The translations under genes were made by a program, and so were the position numbers. A model generated the notes under the pieces. It searched no databases. It was not told the DNA's origin and saw nothing but the letters and a program-made list of their open reading frames with translations. Below, one piece after another: positions 43,223-51,740 of a stretch of 55,255 bases of DNA (positions are counted from its first letter, which is position 1; every line of letters begins with the position of its first letter). The stretch is from Actinomycetota bacterium (GTDB lineage: Bacteria; Actinomycetota; Acidimicrobiia; Acidimicrobiales; Ilumatobacteraceae): contig SYCI01000109.1 of assembly GCA_005787035.1 (NCBI GenBank), positions 1 to 55,255 on the forward strand, read 5' to 3'.

Positions 43223-43265
43223 TGTTTCGGGCCGATGACGATCTCGTGCCTGCTCAGGGGCGATC

Positions 43266-43292
43266 TGGCGCTCCCAACGGGATGCGAACCCG
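43266..43292 (-). pseudogene. Degenerate tRNA-Glu 3'-end fragment (att-site scar)
   Basis: CTGGCgCTCCCAACGGGATgCGAACCCG matches the 3' part of tRNA-Glu at 45270-45297 in 26/28 positions; no 5' half or anticodon arm follows. Confidence 0.7.
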
Positions 43293-43321
43293 CCGGTCCG
43301 GCGGACCGCAGTTCGGAAGGC

Positions 43322-45220
43322 TCAGTTCAAGATGAAGGAAGTAGTGCTTGCCGGGCCGACGCCGTACTCATTGCGCCACACCACGGACACAGAGTGACTC
43401 GATCCCGACTCGAGTCCGCTGACCCAACAGAACCCGAATCCTCCGACATTTCCGGACTCGGCGCATTCAACTGCCGTCCCATCGACCGATACCTCGGCGC
43501 TGAGGACACTGTCCGAAACCGAAGTCCAGATGACGAGCGCCGATGAACACCTGATGCACCATGCGTTGGCCAGGATGGCGACCGAACCCGGTGCCGGGGG
43601 CAGGGCTCCCCACACTGCGGTCAGCGAACCCGACCTCGACACCGAAGTCGTCAGTAGATCCTGGTCCGAGGTTTTCGACGCATCGCGGGTCCAACCGATT
43701 AACACGTAGCCGGAACGTAGGCAGTCAGTAGCTGTTGGCAACTGATACGTCCCGCGGAACTCGATCGTCCACGCCGACGAGTGTTCGCCGCAGGAACCGC
43801 CGGCGGGGTCGAGCGTGACTTGTCTCGTGGGCCGACCGTGTCGGGTCCGACAGTTGTTGGTGTCTGCCGGACCGAAGTTGATCGTCCGAAGAACCGGAAA
43901 CCCGTCGTTCAACGACGACCTGACGCACCACACAGAATCGAAATCCCAACCATTGTCGTCGGCGAGAAATTGACGCGAGCGCAACTCATCTGCGCTTGCG
44001 CAAACGTTGACTGGCCCGACATCGCAGTTCGGTCCGCCTTCCAGACCGAAACTGTTGACACTTACCACAAAGCCATAGTCGGCGCCGACAAGTGCTCCTG
44101 CGGCGCCTGAACTCTCCACTTCGCCGATGGCAAAGGAAGATTGAATGATCTGATCGAAAGCTGCACCAAAAAGTCCACCGACAGAATCAAGACCCACAAC
44201 CGACCCTGCGCTGTACGAGTCAGTGACGTAACTTGGTCCGATGCTAGTCAGATTGGTGTCGCCAACCAGCCCGCCGACCGCACCCTCTCCTCGCACATCT
44301 CCAACTGTGAATGAACGTGTCACTGTTACCGAGTAGAAGGTCCAACCAAGCAACCCTCCTACCGAATCGACCCCCGTGACGTCGCCGGTGGAATAGGAGT
44401 CGGTGAATTCCAAGAATGGAGCACTTGAGTAACCAACCAATCCACCTACAAGATTCACACCGTTAATCTCGCCCGTCGAGTATGACTGCTCGATCGGGTG
44501 TGGCACCTCTTCGATGGAGTATTCAGTCTCGCCGATAAGACCACCCACCTTGTTCGCGCCGCGAATATCTCCAGAGGAATGCGAATCCTCGATATTCACG
44601 GGGCCATCGGTGTCGCCGACCAAACCACCGGCATAATTGAGTCCACTGATGTTTCCGGCGGACGACGAGTTGGTGATCGTCAAGCTTCCACCCACCCGGC
44701 CAATCAATCCACCCACCCGGTCGTTAGCTGTCGTTACGTTGCCGGTCGTTTGCGAATTCGAGATCACAACTTCAAAAATGGACTCTCCGATCAAACCGCC
44801 CGTCTTGTCGACCCCCACGACATTGCCGTGGCGGATGACATCGACGATCTCAAGTCGACCATCAGGTAGATCGAACAACGGCGCCTCGGCGTCGGACTGA
44901 GTGTCAACGAATTCGAATCCGTGTCCATCGAAGGTGCCGAACCAGTTCCCACTCGGACCGACCCAGCCATCGAGATCGATGTCGTCCACCTGGAAGACCG
45001 TCAACCCATTGCAATCGTTGTCCGTCCCAAGGTCGTTCAGATCGGATGCCTCGGTTACCTCCACCCGCTCATCGACTGCGTCCCACAAGACGCAATCGCT
45101 TGGGGCCGAAGCTGCTGCACCGGAAGCCGACACGAATGTGGCCGCAAGCGACAAGGCGATGCCGTTGACGAGCACGCGTGAGCGGACTCTCAGTCGACCT
45201 GCACCACGAAGACGAATCAC
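43322..45220 (-). CDS. Secreted GLUG-repeat surface protein with C-terminal InlB-type repeat-like and FnIII-like regions
   Basis: Repeats such as VGGLIGRVGGSLTITNSSSAGNISG, VGGLVGYSSAPFLEFTDSYSTGDVTG; VTLDPAGGSC...YQLPTATDCLRSGYVLIGWTRD; N-terminal signal peptide. Confidence 0.85.
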   Translation of the reverse strand: MIRLRGAGRLRVRSRVLVNGIALSLAATFVSASGAAASAPSDCVLWDAVDERVEVTEASDLNDLGTDNDCNGLTVFQVDDIDLDGWVGPSGNWFGTFDGHGFEFVDTQSDAEAPLFDLPDGRLEIVDVIRHGNVVGVDKTGGLIGESIFEVVISNSQTTGNVTTANDRVGGLIGRVGGSLTITNSSSAGNISGLNYAGGLVGDTDGPVNIEDSHSSGDIRGANKVGGLIGETEYSIEEVPHPIEQSYSTGEINGVNLVGGLVGYSSAPFLEFTDSYSTGDVTGVDSVGGLLGWTFYSVTVTRSFTVGDVRGEGAVGGLVGDTNLTSIGPSYVTDSYSAGSVVGLDSVGGLFGAAFDQIIQSSFAIGEVESSGAAGALVGADYGFVVSVNSFGLEGGPNCDVGPVNVCASADELRSRQFLADDNGWDFDSVWCVRSSLNDGFPVLRTINFGPADTNNCRTRHGRPTRQVTLDPAGGSCGEHSSAWTIEFRGTYQLPTATDCLRSGYVLIGWTRDASKTSDQDLLTTSVSRSGSLTAVWGALPPAPGSVAILANAWCIRCSSALVIWTSVSDSVLSAEVSVDGTAVECAESGNVGGFGFCWVSGLESGSSHSVSVVWRNEYGVGPASTTSFILN

Positions 45221-45266
45221 TGTAAAAGACTACAGAAGGACGCCTTGCTCATTGGAGCGCCCCGAA

Positions 45267-45358
45267 CCTCTGGCACTCCCAACGGGATTCGAACCCGTGC
45301 CGCCACCTTGAGAGGGTGGTGTCCTAGGCCACTAGACGATGGGAGCAAGTAGCGGACG
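45267..45358. repeat. 92-bp direct repeat, left copy (att site)
   Basis: Identical base for base to 51501-51592; flanks diverge immediately (a/t at left, g/a at right). Confidence 0.93.
45271..45346 (-). tRNA. tRNA-Glu (CTC), left copy
   Basis: GCTCCCATCGTCTAGTGGCCTAGGACACCACCCTCTCAAGGTGGCGGCACGGGTTCGAATCCCGTTGGGAGTGCCA; anticodon loop CTCTCAA. Confidence 0.95.
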
Positions 45359-45418
45359 GTTTCTGCGCTCCGGAACGGGTCTCGACTCGTCCAAGGACTC
45401 AACCCTGAAGGGATTCCC

Positions 45419-46279
45419 ATGATCCTCCGCAGTTACGAGTTCCACCTCAGAGCGAAGAACCTGTCACCAGCCACCATCAAGGCAGCAAGGGAATACCTCT
45501 CCCCGTTCCTGGCCGTCCACGACCCTTACAAGACCACGATCCGCGAGGTGGAGGCTTGGTTGGCGGATATGTCAACCCGTTGTAAACCAAGCACTGTCTG
45601 GACCGCCTGGCGGCATCTCAAGGCATTCTTTGAGTGGCTCTCGCTTGAAGGGGATATCCCCACGAACCCGATGGAGCGCATTCGAAAGCCTCTGGTTCCG
45701 ACCACGGAGGTCAATGTCCTCAATGCCCAACAGTCAAAGTCACTGATCGAAGCGTGCCGAGGGAAGGACCGAGACTCTCGCCGTGACCTGGCGATGGTCT
45801 CAATCATGCTGGACACCGGGATCCGGCTGTCGGAACTCGCCAATCTGACAATTGACGACGTGTCCGAGGATGGAACTCTTCGCATATTCGGCAAGGGGCG
45901 GAAATGGCGAACCGTCGCCCTTGGTGGCACCTCCCAACGTCACCTCAGCGCATGGCTACGGTCGTCTGGCATCACCGAAGGCCCCCTCTGGATAGGGAGG
46001 AAGGGCCCGATGACAACAACTGGCATCAGGAAGATGCTTGCGCGTCGTGGGTCAACGGCTGGCTTGCGCCTACACCCGCACATGCTTCGTCACACATTTG
46101 TCGACAATTGGCTACGAAACGGTGGTTCCGAAGTTGACCTCGCCCGAATCGCTGGCTGGACCTCGACTCGAATGGCCGAGCGGTACGCAAGGCATCGTGC
46201 CGATGAACGGGCGATCCAAGCACACAGGAATATTTCGCCGATGGATGGGCTGTATTCAGCGGTTGGGAGAAAGGTCTGA
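45419..46279 (+). CDS. Tyrosine recombinase/integrase
   Basis: DTGIRLSELANLTIDDV, HPHMLRHTFVDNWLRNGGSEVDLARIAGWTSTRMAERYARH (R..HxxR..W..Y catalytic set); N-terminal SAM-like domain. Confidence 0.95.
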   Translation: MILRSYEFHLRAKNLSPATIKAAREYLSPFLAVHDPYKTTIREVEAWLADMSTRCKPSTVWTAWRHLKAFFEWLSLEGDIPTNPMERIRKPLVPTTEVNVLNAQQSKSLIEACRGKDRDSRRDLAMVSIMLDTGIRLSELANLTIDDVSEDGTLRIFGKGRKWRTVALGGTSQRHLSAWLRSSGITEGPLWIGRKGPMTTTGIRKMLARRGSTAGLRLHPHMLRHTFVDNWLRNGGSEVDLARIAGWTSTRMAERYARHRADERAIQAHRNISPMDGLYSAVGRKV

Positions 46280-46446
46280 ACCACTGAAATGAAGTTGTCG
46301 AGCCTCTAATCCACGCACTTAGACCCTTAGTTAAGACTGTTAGTTCACGCGACGCATAGGTGCGACTGGCCCCTCGCACTACACCCAAATTTGTGCGAAG
46401 TTGAGTGCCGTCAACACCACTGGTCCCACAACGAAGAGGTTGAACC

Positions 46447-47442
46447 ATGGCACTTATCAACTGCCCTGAATGCGAGAAACAAATCTCTGACAAAGCACCC
46501 GCGTGCCCAAACTGCGGAGTTCCGCTGGGCGACCCATCGCCGGCACCCACAAGCACTGGGACAGGGTCGATCGGATGCGCCGGTTGCAGACAATCCGATC
46601 GGGTCGTAAGAGTTGGCGCACTACAACTGACCCATCGAAAACACACACAAGAGGTTGGTGAAGTTGACCTTCAGACAAACGGAATCTCGGTGAGCGGGAA
46701 CTTTGCCCTCACAGATGATTTTGCACTTGTCTCATCGCCGTGGACTGGCCTCTCGGTCCAGGCTTCGTCGACCAGTGGCACGATTCAGACGTCGGGAACA
46801 AGCGAGTCCGGCCTCCTGCGGGCTATTGAGTACTGGATCCCCGTTCCTCTTCCTGGCGATCCCATCCCTACTGAGTTCGATGCGCAACTAAAGCGCTACG
46901 AGGACGCATTGGTATGTGAACGTTGCGCCACGGCGACGCTCGAAGGTGAGGCTGTCAAATTCGATCAACTCTCGCTGCGTGTCTTCGGGCCAACCGGCCT
47001 CACGAGGAGCCTGGAGTACCAATCTCTCGTCGCACATAACGCTCGAGCAAATTTCGGCGTTCTGATCAGGCGTAAGGGAACAAAGAACGCCACTCTTCAA
47101 CAACTTGAGGGAATTCACTCGACGATTTCAAACTCGTTTCAGTTCAACCCCGGTTTCGAAACTCGGCGACTTAGTGTTGATGACGTCGAAATCCGAATCT
47201 CTGCAGGAAGTAGTGGCTCTCAGGCAAAAGCCAAGGCAATGGGAGCCATGGGGAAAGCAAGTTGGTGGCCAACCACTGGAGTTGTTTCATCAATGTTGGA
47301 CTCGACTACCGGTGATGCCCTCTACTCGGTAGTTGCTACCGCCGACTACGAAAACTCTGCCCTCACTGCAATCGGTATTTCGGGCCGCTACAAAAAGCGC
47401 TTCGGAGAGTTGGCAGAGATTTTGAACACAAGCGTTAAGTAG
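46447..47442 (+). CDS. Uncharacterised zinc-ribbon protein (cargo)
   Basis: MALINCPECEKQISDKAPACPNCG zinc ribbon, further CxxC pairs CAGC and CERC; remainder not recognised. Confidence 0.7.
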   Translation: MALINCPECEKQISDKAPACPNCGVPLGDPSPAPTSTGTGSIGCAGCRQSDRVVRVGALQLTHRKHTQEVGEVDLQTNGISVSGNFALTDDFALVSSPWTGLSVQASSTSGTIQTSGTSESGLLRAIEYWIPVPLPGDPIPTEFDAQLKRYEDALVCERCATATLEGEAVKFDQLSLRVFGPTGLTRSLEYQSLVAHNARANFGVLIRRKGTKNATLQQLEGIHSTISNSFQFNPGFETRRLSVDDVEIRISAGSSGSQAKAKAMGAMGKASWWPTTGVVSSMLDSTTGDALYSVVATADYENSALTAIGISGRYKKRFGELAEILNTSVK

Positions 47443-47522
47443 GCCCTAGGAGTACAGCGACTTTGCAATTGGTGTAACGGGATCGTTAATCAGTCGACTG
47501 AACAACAAGTACGGTTCCGCCA

Positions 47523-48464
47523 ATGGGGATGTTTAAGAGCCGCAAGGAACCCCCTCGCCCGGCACAGGGCGGGGGGCGCACATCAAACTTCAGGGAACCA
47601 TCGATCCCTGGAACACATCCTGGACCACCCTTTCTCAAGACCCCATTCATCGCTTCCACAAAGGGGCCGGGATCAATTGACTCCATCGCGCACTACGTCG
47701 GCTTCGGTCAATCAATTCACAGAAACTTCAGTTCAGCCGATTGCGCTTCGGACCACATCTTTGTGGTCGACGCGACTCGAGACCTTGAATTTGCGCTTGG
47801 TTTCAGCGACGAACCACGTAGAGCCCTATTCACGAGCCAAACTGGCGACCCCCTAATGCTGGTGATTGATTGGACACCACCAATTGGTCGTTCACAGGTC
47901 GAGGTAGGAGAGCGCCTAAGAGAGACGTTCGGAGTTTCGGAGACGCCGATCGCAACGATTCATGGGATCCTGACAGCGGGAATGTCGATTTGGACACTCG
48001 CCTTAACCGCATCAAGCCTCTACGCACTCGGTGAAAGCGGGCAACCATCAATACAAGTGCCTCTCGCTGACATCTTCGGACTTCGACTATCGGGATTTGA
48101 ACTTGCTCTCAATTATGCAGGACACGATCAAAACTACGGGCTCCCGCAACCAGGAATGAAACTCCAGTACGAGTCACTCGCTTTCTTTCATGTGAGATAC
48201 ATAACAACTTGGACAGAATTCGCGACTGCAGTTGAAGAGGCGTGGATCAAGGTTTCGATTGCTGAACCTGCAAACAAAGTCTTTGGTGACTTGGGTTCTC
48301 TTTCCGTCTACTCGCGTTCGCACTATGGAAATCTCTTCACGAGCCACTTCCCTTTCCGAGAAGAGGGACTTAGACAAACTGCATCTAGTAAAGGCCTTCA
48401 AAGTGTCATTGAATCGTGGGCGCAACAGGAGTTAGAGGCGTTCCGTTTGCGAACACAAAAGTGA
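47523..48464 (+). CDS. Uncharacterised protein (cargo)
   Basis: 313-aa ORF in the same orientation and AT-richer composition as its neighbours; no recognised motif. Confidence 0.6.
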   Translation: MGMFKSRKEPPRPAQGGGRTSNFREPSIPGTHPGPPFLKTPFIASTKGPGSIDSIAHYVGFGQSIHRNFSSADCASDHIFVVDATRDLEFALGFSDEPRRALFTSQTGDPLMLVIDWTPPIGRSQVEVGERLRETFGVSETPIATIHGILTAGMSIWTLALTASSLYALGESGQPSIQVPLADIFGLRLSGFELALNYAGHDQNYGLPQPGMKLQYESLAFFHVRYITTWTEFATAVEEAWIKVSIAEPANKVFGDLGSLSVYSRSHYGNLFTSHFPFREEGLRQTASSKGLQSVIESWAQQELEAFRLRTQK

Positions 48465-48640
48465 TGGCCGTTGCGTCAACGCCCTTGACAGGTTCAGGCG
48501 TTCTAAAGACACCTCGTGGTAGTTGGCTAGAAATGTCGACACAGTTTTGATGAGCACTGATGTATTTCAAGTTCATTAATTGTTGACAGAGTTGCGCCGC
48601 AGGTTGACTGATGGGACTTAATCTCTAATTGCTCGGAGTT

Positions 48641-48670
48641 CCCTTCATGGTTGATGAGACTCACGAAGGG
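48641..48670. other. Imperfect inverted repeat upstream of 48718 ORF
   Basis: CCCTTCATG / CACGAAGGG arms with one mismatched pair. Confidence 0.3.
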
Positions 48671-48717
48671 CACGTCGACAGAACCCCTCCACGATCACGA
48701 ACTCTCCTTGAGCGTGG

Positions 48718-49182
48718 TTGATTTCGAGTGGTGAGCATCACCTCACTGAAATCACTCGGGTGTTCGTGGATGAGATCAAAATAGAGTTCAGAGAAATTAG
48801 AGATGTAAATGAGTTTTTCGTTGTTTCAACAAAATTTGAGTGGTTCGAATTTGTCAAAGAAGCGGGTTCGCTCGCTGTGACGTTGACTATTGCAACCCAG
48901 ACTGTCGTTGTGGTTTCTCCAGCCACGCCGAAGAATTCGAAGAAGGGCCTGTACTTCTCAGTCATACTTGACGCTGGCAGTAGCAAGGCTCCAGATCACT
49001 GGTACGGGAACATTTACCCAATAGGCCGTGAGCAAGTACGCGATGAACTCGATGGGCTACTCGGCGCGATGCCCGGTGAGCGATTCAAGATCTCTGGAAA
49101 GGTTCGGAAGTGGAACCTTGAGACTGGCGGCTACGGAGTCGTTATTGATATTTCTGCGGCGAGCCCAGTTGAGAGCATCTGA
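48718..49182 (+). CDS. Uncharacterised protein (cargo)
   Basis: 154-aa ORF, TTG start or downstream alternative; ...GERFKISGKVRKWNLETGGYGVVIDIS, beta-rich and OB-like by eye only. Confidence 0.5.
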   Translation: MISSGEHHLTEITRVFVDEIKIEFREIRDVNEFFVVSTKFEWFEFVKEAGSLAVTLTIATQTVVVVSPATPKNSKKGLYFSVILDAGSSKAPDHWYGNIYPIGREQVRDELDGLLGAMPGERFKISGKVRKWNLETGGYGVVIDISAASPVESI

Positions 49183-49312
49183 CGTACGGGAACTCCCAGT
49201 TTGGTGAGATTTATCTAAACACTTGGGCTGCGAAACCCCCAGATATACAGCATTCACCATCCACGATGCTCCGGTCGGGGCGTGTCTCACCCTTCTTCTA
49301 GGCTTAGTTGCA

Positions 49313-50650
49313 ATGGCTCGTACACCCTTCAAATTTGTTGATCTCTTCGCGGGAATTGGTGGCTTCCACGCAGCCCTTAGCGGATTCGGGGGGAAGTGTG
49401 TTTACGGCGTTGAGATCGACCCTGCAGCAGCCGCTGTGTATGAGCGCAACTGGGGGAAGTCAATTCTTGGAGACATCACCGAAGACGTCTCCGACTCGCA
49501 GTGTCTCGTGCCCGCCCACGACGTTTTGGCGGCCGGATTTCCCTGTCAGCCCTTCTCGAAGTCGGGCGCCCAACTTGGCATGGAAGAAACTCGAGGCACC
49601 CTTTACTGGAACATTCTTCAGATCATCCGCCACCGACAACCCGCTCTAGTCATCCTCGAAAATGTCCGCAACCTCGCAGGTCCACGACATATCCACGAAT
49701 GGCGGGTCATCGTCGAGACCCTCCGGGAGCAGGGATACAGGGTCGCAGATGTGCCAGCAGTGTTTTCCCCGCATCTACTCCCCCCTGATCTCGGTGGCCG
49801 ACCTCAAATCCGCGAACGAGTGTTCATCGTCGCGGTGAGAGAGGCCCCCGGAGTAACTGACCACAGACTTGATCTTCCACTCGTTGACAACCGCGCAGTT
49901 CGTGGATGGGATCCAGGGACTTGGGACTTGATCTCAGATCTCCCAATTGAACCGACTGAGGCTGGCCCGGAATGCCGACTCTCCAGTTCTGAGGGGTACT
50001 GGATCGACGCCTGGGACGACTTCGTCGTTGGCATGTGGGAGGAACGAGATGGACGTCGTCTGCCCGGCTTTCCACTCTGGGGAGACAACTGGGTCACCAA
50101 CTCGGCCCTGAAGATTCCAAAGGGAACTCCTACCTGGAAAGCCGACTTTCTTAGGAAGAACGCAGCGTTTTACACAGAGCACCAGAAATTCATCAACTCA
50201 TGGACGAAACGCTGGAAGTTCTACACCGAAGCATTTCCACCTTCACGACGGAAACTTGAATGGCAAGCGCAGGACACTCCTCGCCTCTGGGACACGGTCA
50301 TGCACCTGCGGCCATCCGGCATCAGAGCACGCAGAGCGACATACCTTCCCGCTCTGGTCGCCATCACACAAACTTCCATCATCGGACCGTTGAGGCGCCG
50401 CCTATCCCCTCGAGAGGCCGCAAGGCTTCAGGGCCTGCCAGATTGGTTTGACTTCGGAGCGCAGGCTCCAGCCGCCACCTACCGGCAACTTGGGAACGGC
50501 GTGAGTGTGGGCGCGGTATGGCACGTGGTGCGACAGGCGGTTCAGGCTTACGAAGAAACCCTCAAGAAGACGTGCCCAGGTCTAGTTCGATCGGTCCTAG
50601 GCGCTGAAGAGAGTCCTGACCCAGCATTACGACGGCTGGGTCCCTCCTGA
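49313..50650 (+). CDS. DNA (cytosine-5-)-methyltransferase
   Basis: FVDLFAGIGGFHAAL (I), AAGFPCQPFSKSG (IV), LVILENVRNL (VI), YRQLGNGVSVGAVWHV (X). Confidence 0.95.
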   Translation: MARTPFKFVDLFAGIGGFHAALSGFGGKCVYGVEIDPAAAAVYERNWGKSILGDITEDVSDSQCLVPAHDVLAAGFPCQPFSKSGAQLGMEETRGTLYWNILQIIRHRQPALVILENVRNLAGPRHIHEWRVIVETLREQGYRVADVPAVFSPHLLPPDLGGRPQIRERVFIVAVREAPGVTDHRLDLPLVDNRAVRGWDPGTWDLISDLPIEPTEAGPECRLSSSEGYWIDAWDDFVVGMWEERDGRRLPGFPLWGDNWVTNSALKIPKGTPTWKADFLRKNAAFYTEHQKFINSWTKRWKFYTEAFPPSRRKLEWQAQDTPRLWDTVMHLRPSGIRARRATYLPALVAITQTSIIGPLRRRLSPREAARLQGLPDWFDFGAQAPAATYRQLGNGVSVGAVWHVVRQAVQAYEETLKKTCPGLVRSVLGAEESPDPALRRLGPS

Positions 50651-51365
50651 CTTCCCATCCGAATACGAGCCCGTTACCTCCACAGGGATGACGCCAAAGG
50701 TCCGAGAATGGCTGTCGCTGGTGGTCGCTGACCAAGTTCTCCCTTCTAAAGAGAACGTCCGCAAAGTCCACTAGTTCTGCGGGATCAAGGACGCCATTCG
50801 CCCGATCGTTCTTTCGGCAGACAGCCCGGATCTCGTTGACTCGCCCTGTTTCGGCGGGGTGTCGCCCTGCGGCCACCTCACAGGACTGGAAACTGTAGGA
50901 GAAGGCATATCCAACTACTGCGTGGCGCGACGCAAGCGGATATCTCCGCATACGAAGGATGTCGTGAATCAGACTTCGATCCTTCAAGTACGGAGAAAGC
51001 GTCTTCTGGACATTGAAGTCGTTGTTTTTTCCGTTATCGCCAATGAACTGGATCCTCTTCAACTCGATCGCCCACTCCGGCCCAGCAGAGGTCCCAGCAG
51101 GTGAGCGGAAAACGATGTCGCATGAGGCGCCCTTGAGCGCGGGATACGGAACTTCGCGTGCGCAGGTCCCGCTGGGCTCAAAGTCGCTGGCGTAGGCAAC
51201 CTTCCACCACTCGACTAACTCCGCGCAGAGTTGTGGCTCAGTCATCGACGGCACCCCAGGCAGATAGGTCATCCCAGTTCGAGCACTCGACCCCACAAAC
51301 GTCGTGTTTTGGTCGACATATGCGAGGCCTTCAGCGACACGGGCGACGAGGGTTTGGAGGTTCAC
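50562..51365 (-). CDS. Putative type II restriction endonuclease (PD-ExK-like)
   Basis: CDIVFRSPAGTSAGPEWAIELKRIQF gives D...ExK; convergent with and overlapping the cytosine methyltransferase by 89 bp. Confidence 0.7.
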   Translation of the reverse strand: MNLQTLVARVAEGLAYVDQNTTFVGSSARTGMTYLPGVPSMTEPQLCAELVEWWKVAYASDFEPSGTCAREVPYPALKGASCDIVFRSPAGTSAGPEWAIELKRIQFIGDNGKNNDFNVQKTLSPYLKDRSLIHDILRMRRYPLASRHAVVGYAFSYSFQSCEVAAGRHPAETGRVNEIRAVCRKNDRANGVLDPAELVDFADVLFRRENLVSDHQRQPFSDLWRHPCGGNGLVFGWEVRRDPAVVMLGQDSLQRLGPIELDLGTSS

Positions 51366-51500
51366 GATTAGCAGCCACCTGCGAAGGACACCACTCTGCG
51401 CACAACAAGCGGTCTAGTCGAAATCACGTAGCATCGGAAGCGTTCACACAAAACCGTCTAACGACGAGGAGCGACGCGCAACCCGGAGCAAACGAGACAT

Positions 51501-51592
51501 CCTCTGGCACTCCCAACGGGATTCGAACCCGTGCCGCCACCTTGAGAGGGTGGTGTCCTAGGCCACTAGACGATGGGAGCAAGTAGCGGACG
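51501..51592. repeat. 92-bp direct repeat, right copy (att site)
   Basis: Identical to 45267-45358. Confidence 0.93.
51505..51580 (-). tRNA. tRNA-Glu (CTC), right copy
   Basis: Same 76-nt sequence as 45271-45346, CCA encoded. Confidence 0.95.
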
Positions 51593-51639
51593 AAACGCTA
51601 CCGCCCGAGGGCGTAGCCACCACCGGGTCCACATGCAAA

Positions 51640-51665: not shown

Positions 51666-51740
51666 TGGCTGGGGAGCAAGGAATCGAACCCTGAATAACA
51701 GAACCAGAATCTGCTGTGTTGCCAGTTACACCACTCCCCA
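51666..51740 (-). tRNA. tRNA-Gln (CTG)
   Basis: TGGGGAGTGGTGTAACTGGCAACACAGCAGATTCTGGTTCTGTTATTCAGGGTTCGATTCCTTGCTCCCCAGCCA; loop TTCTGGT. Confidence 0.95.

Follow-up and report, generated by a model that had tools for sequence, protein, structure and literature searches.

Locus and gene content

The window, the 55,255-bp stretch of DNA analysed here, belongs to a fragmented draft assembly (166 contigs) of an uncultured bacterium. Within it, a 6.14-kb segment lies between two 92-nt direct repeats. Besides an intact tyrosine recombinase and a C5-cytosine methylase, this segment encodes a possible nuclease and three ORFs that were not recognised; the element unit is 6,234 bp. Each repeat copy contains a full tRNA-Glu(CTC) gene on the minus strand with encoded CCA, 12 bp of upstream sequence and 4 bp of downstream sequence. 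Right of the repeats lie tRNA-Gln, a DUF218 gene and gltX, conserved across the genus. On the left, a GntR-like gene common to genomes G004 and G022 extends to about 43.2 kb and is followed directly by a tRNA 3′ stub and then a low-GC segment of 2 kb. The features are:

43264–43292, minus: decayed 3′ stub of tRNA-Glu (27/29 match), probable edge of an older insertion
43293–45266, no strand: probable remnant of the older insertion, GC 0.58, containing the 632-aa ORF
43322–45220, minus: 632-aa repeat-rich ORF, weak GLUG match below cutoff
45267–45358, minus: left (integrase-side) attachment repeat, 92 bp; tRNA-Glu(CTC) at 45271–45346, 12-nt leader at 45347–45358, no conserved −10 box upstream
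45419–46279, plus: tyrosine recombinase, 286 aa, XerC/XerA-like (PF00589, 2.6e-27)
46447–47442, plus: 331-aa ORF, weak N-terminal zinc ribbon
47523–48464, plus: 313-aa orphan ORF, no confident fold
48718–49182, plus: 154-aa ORF, no family match
49313–50650, plus: C5-cytosine DNA methyltransferase, 445 aa, DruM2/type II-like (PF00145, 2.6e-67)
50562–51365, minus: 267-aa ORF, possible restriction nuclease, convergent with the methylase, D...ExK-like motif
51501–51592, minus: right attachment repeat, 92 bp; full tRNA-Glu(CTC) at 51505–51580, native upstream flank kept
51595–51600, minus: TAGCGT, putative native −10 box for the right tRNA-Glu; also kept in G011, G019 and further members of the genus
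51666–51740, minus: native tRNA-Gln(CTG) (ARAGORN; relatives), upstream neighbour anchoring the site

A repeat search placed the two copies in one 92-nt family, 100% identical at a spacing of 6234. Bases immediately outside the copies already differ on both sides, and an identical 92-mer occurring twice in one contig is far beyond chance. ARAGORN calls both tRNA-Glu(CTC) genes, and each scores 61.9 bits against the Rfam tRNA model. Genus relatives have one near-identical CTC match per genome at the tRNA-Glu locus. GC content between the repeats is 0.550, versus 0.635 in the flank (sd 0.006); 186 segments of 6.1 kb from positions 1–43200 range from 0.624 to 0.649, all above the island. A preliminary description made from the sequence alone had reported the perfect repeats with their complete tRNA genes, a tyrosine recombinase adjoining the left copy, AT-richer sequence between the copies and three unrecognised genes (the ORFs of 331, 313 and 154 aa, which have no assigned family). 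All of these hold, the repeat boundaries to the base.

The integrase gene begins 60 bp from the left repeat and is directed away from it. Its columns R136, K159, H221, R224, W247 and Y256 are conserved in a four-member alignment and presumably form the catalytic set, as in the family. A search of viral contigs with the integrase gave one weak match. No excisionase was found in the element. Pfam and PHROGs match only the integrase and methylase; structural, replication and conjugation genes were not found in the island, and the assignments prophage and ICE were rejected on that account.

The island cargo is probably a restriction-modification-like pair. The methylase half of the methyltransferase/nuclease pair proposed earlier is secure; the nuclease half is plausible only, and is suggested by the D...ExK-like motif and a 52–57% relative in G175, the one relative of this ORF among the family genomes. 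No HMM family or PDB match was found for it, nor was it found in any viral contig or plasmid. AlphaFold mean pLDDT is 35 for the possible nuclease and 32 for the 313-aa ORF, for which a search of 222 family genomes returned no relative. In the same set, the methylase has one (46% identity). It matches the PADLOC DruM2 and type II models closely. Druantia, suggested by the strong DruM2 match, was rejected because DruE and DruH are absent and the methylase alone matches.

Host site and probable older insertion

In G011 and G019, the nearest relatives, tRNA-Gln is accompanied by one tRNA-Glu only, the single-copy state that the preliminary description proposed to look for. In G019, 85 bp separate tRNA-Gln from tRNA-Glu, and the same distance is found in the window. 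Upstream of the right copy, and likewise in G011 and G019, both the TAGCGT box and its spacing are retained; they are missing from the left copy. The 12-nt leader of the left repeat is CGTCCGCTACTT. Of all the sequences collected, only the two window copies, G011 and G019 contain the 22-mer formed by the leader and the tRNA 5′ end; TAGCGTTT precedes it in the right copy, G011 and G019 and is absent only before the left copy. The right copy is thus probably the one with the host promoter, as proposed earlier, and only this copy is likely expressed, since the left lacks the conserved −10 box. The earlier statement that insertion leaves two intact tRNA genes therefore stands for the gene bodies and fails for the promoters.

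No relative was found with the empty form of the window's left junction, because the sequence left of tRNA-Glu differs between members of the genus. Alternatively, the second tRNA could have arisen by simple duplication in the host or by misassembly, with the island beside it by coincidence, as would be in keeping with an assembly in 166 contigs. This account is scarcely credible: the GntR-like flank and the tRNA-Gln/DUF218/gltX flank also lie close together in G022 and G004, and the insert differs in composition and brings an integrase of its own.

The best-supported reading of 45267–51592 is a tRNA-targeted integrative island, the attL/attR layout that the preliminary description put forward. 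Evidence for it comes from the tRNA-bearing repeats, the intact integrase, the foreign composition, cargo missing from nearly all relatives, the single tRNA-Glu in G011 and G019, and sister integrases at tRNA-Glu in four genomes. A contrary outcome raised earlier, that relatives keep the island genes as conserved core, was not borne out: the cargo genes tested are not core across 222 family genomes, with the limit that the absence of a gene from an incomplete genome is weak evidence.

Several genus or family members have tRNA-Gln and tRNA-Glu separated by 1.6–4.9 kb (L037, L039, L041, L042, L043, L048). Where ORFs were read, the spacer holds a PhoX-like gene or a transporter-like cluster. The spacers in G001, G003, G008, G021, G023 and G025 were considered as remnants of the window's element. 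This was dropped, as the spacer is a gene that looks like a PhoX-type phosphatase in G003 and G008, and a transporter-like cluster in G001. Raw tblastx comparison of the loci was too noisy to be used alone.

A third, partial tRNA copy at 43264–43292, absent from the preliminary description, matches the tRNA 3′ end at 27 of 29 positions (E 7.6e-6 genome-wide). Together with the low-GC segment beside it, this stub is a probable older insertion at the same tRNA. The region from 43.29 to 51.5 kb would then be stacked foreign DNA.

Integrase relatives and sister elements

Close integrases (59–67% identity) are encoded in four other family genomes, G187, G166, G107 and G018. All four have the arrangement seen in the window's element and adjoin tRNA-Glu(CTC) sequence. 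The five Glu-site integrases form one clade (100/100). The tree does not settle the order inside this clade, and hence does not rank a hairpin-bearing against a perfect 5′ half as the earlier state.

Wider kin, both in the order (36–45% identity) and among public genomes, mostly adjoin other tRNAs (Thr, Arg, Asn, Val, Ala, Pro and Met), with the tRNA directed to the integrase in some and reversed in others. This order-level survey is partial, with both ends readable in a minority of kin. The kin repeats that could be read have an edge at the anticodon arm and cover 3′ halves in G107 (54 bp), G051 (68 bp) and G505 (48 bp), and 5′ halves in G285 (38 bp) and G447 (39 bp). Crossover in the anticodon loop is therefore the likely norm of the integrase family. 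A CACAGCG(CTC)-like motif is repeated around attachment sites of distant kin (L227, L233, L171 and others) and may represent arm-type integrase sites.

G107 has a normal tRNA as its right copy and the insert CTGCCCGAAGGGCAG in the 5′ half of its left copy; the two share a repeat of 54 bp, with the anticodon arm at one end and CCAAT at the other. The empty site is seen in G024, a member of that genus. A 15-nt hairpin insert damages the 5′ half of the integrase-side tRNA in three of the four sister elements (G107, G166 and G187). The G166 insert equals that of G107, and the G187 insert differs by one base. Hairpin-bearing tRNAs score 30 bits in G107 and 32.5 bits in G166; none was detected in G187. 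This conserved hairpin spans three related elements in two genera (L169, L170 and L168, respectively). It was found in no other genome of the 222 family genomes searched, and its pattern in no viral contig.

The G018 locus was read from two contigs (L045, L044) overlapping by 124 bp. Its order is PhoX-like gene, 75-bp repeat, 2.8-kb element with integrase, 75-bp repeat, 17 bp, tRNA-Glu. The 75-bp perfect repeat is the 3′ end of the PhoX-like gene. A second tRNA was not found in the two contigs, which hold a single tRNA-Glu. At face value, not every element crosses over at the anticodon, since the G018 repeat lies upstream of its tRNA.

Among Glu-site elements, only the window has a perfect whole tRNA with the 12-nt leader. 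In relatives, the tRNA 5′ end follows GAAACC; in the window, host sequence begins at that point. The leader and tRNA start are specific to the host lineage (G011, G019), so host-lineage sequence was probably placed on the element side, by capture or by conversion.

Conversion gives one alternative history. An ordinary anticodon-site integration would have left a damaged integrase-side tRNA, and RecA-type conversion from the right copy would later have restored the tRNA and 12 nt. The hairpin-broken 5′ half in three of the four other Glu-clade elements is consistent with this, as is a window leader of host-lineage sequence joined to GAAACC at the point that the tRNA 5′ end occupies in relatives. 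Against it, conversion that extends beyond the end of homology is uncommon, and the distant kin G285 and G447 have a perfect tRNA 5′ half on the integrase side, which may therefore be the ancestral state. We regard this history as a real minority possibility. On this history, the circle itself would have no whole tRNA until its next excision. Gene conversion bears also on the earlier suggestion that perfect identity marks a recent or still mobile element: the identity is exact, and as a sign of recency alone it does not suffice, since conversion may also account for it.

Strand exchange within the 12-nt leader is a second alternative, in which a promoterless spare tRNA on the element would take the host promoter and the left copy would be the displaced original. 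The repeat begins two bases after the −10 box, and the repeat of the sister element in G018 ends 17 bp upstream of its tRNA, both of which fit. However, wherever repeat edges could be read in kin, exchange maps to the anticodon arm, and the repeats of G018 and the window have no positional overlap. Exchange in the leader is quite improbable.

Proposed mechanism

The likely overall explanation, in our view, is that the element used its tyrosine recombinase to integrate into the tRNA-Glu(CTC) gene beside tRNA-Gln and brought a whole tRNA with it. The two complete tRNAs at its ends apparently reflect uptake of the host's whole tRNA gene. The circular element would recombine with the host gene at the anticodon loop, as the repeat edges of kin suggest; the crossover point of the window's own element is unreadable because the copies are identical over the full repeat length. 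As the circle would carry a whole tRNA, both junctions would become full tRNA genes. The right junction would consist of host promoter, host 5′ half and element 3′ half, and the left junction of element leader and 5′ half with the host 3′ half. The right copy would supply tRNA-Glu, and the left would probably be silent. For the 5′ half and 12-nt leader of the element, the present host lineage is the most likely source; they would have been gained in an aberrant excision that carried host sequence along, or through gene conversion templated by the right copy. Whether the circle carried the whole tRNA or conversion came later, the working copy would stay on the right for the host.

Comparison with known systems and implications

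As a kind, the island is already known, a tRNA island; its whole displaced tRNA departs from the tRNA-plus-fragment pattern, which nearly all islands of this sort follow. Elements that reverse the orientation of their target gene were reportedly described by Zhao and Williams in 2002. As in the window, their integrase adjoins the tRNA 5′ end and is transcribed away from it, and the distant kin G285 and G447 share with them true 5′-half repeats. In these elements, the repeat is limited to the 5′ half and the promoter comes from the element, whereas the window repeat also spans the 3′ half and the host promoter (−10 box) remains on the full right copy. The attachment region of phage HP1 likewise has long phage/host identity covering a whole tRNA sequence; HP1 is a large phage with a different integrase.

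Islander-class tRNA islands share with the window a tyrosine recombinase, a tRNA target and direct repeats at both ends, and with its kin an anticodon-type attachment region (PMC4383910). Their displaced copy is a tRNA fragment, whereas in the window it is a whole tRNA. The usual signature of one full tRNA plus a fragment is thus absent, both copies being full. Islander rejects hits inside a full-length tRNA gene (PMC4383910), so islands of this layout would be filtered out. In tRNA-dependent lysogeny of mycobacteriophages, the common core is about 10 bp, the tRNA is not rebuilt and a separate tRNA complements (PMC10865867). What the two share is an integrase at a host tRNA, and a tRNA of matching isotype carried by the element; in the window, by contrast, the tRNA itself is the attachment repeat. 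Detection programs for tRNA islands expect a single tRNA plus a single fragment, and islands that duplicate the whole gene may be undercounted.

A broader proposal, which we consider rather unlikely, is that host sequence around tRNA-Glu is acquired again and again in this integrase clade, so that its elements come to carry a working host tRNA gene and can replace the resident gene. If true, the sequence taken up would be the 12-nt leader in the window and about 92 bp of upstream sequence in G018. G018 would then be the end state, a mobile element relocating and taking over a host tRNA gene, because the only tRNA-Glu(CTC) found there is the integrase-side copy with promoter and no second copy was found. 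Across the five Glu-site elements of one integrase clade, the integrase-side tRNA is hairpin-broken, perfect without a promoter, or the sole copy with a promoter. With this spread of states, the gain, breakage or replacement of host tRNA genes by elements becomes testable.
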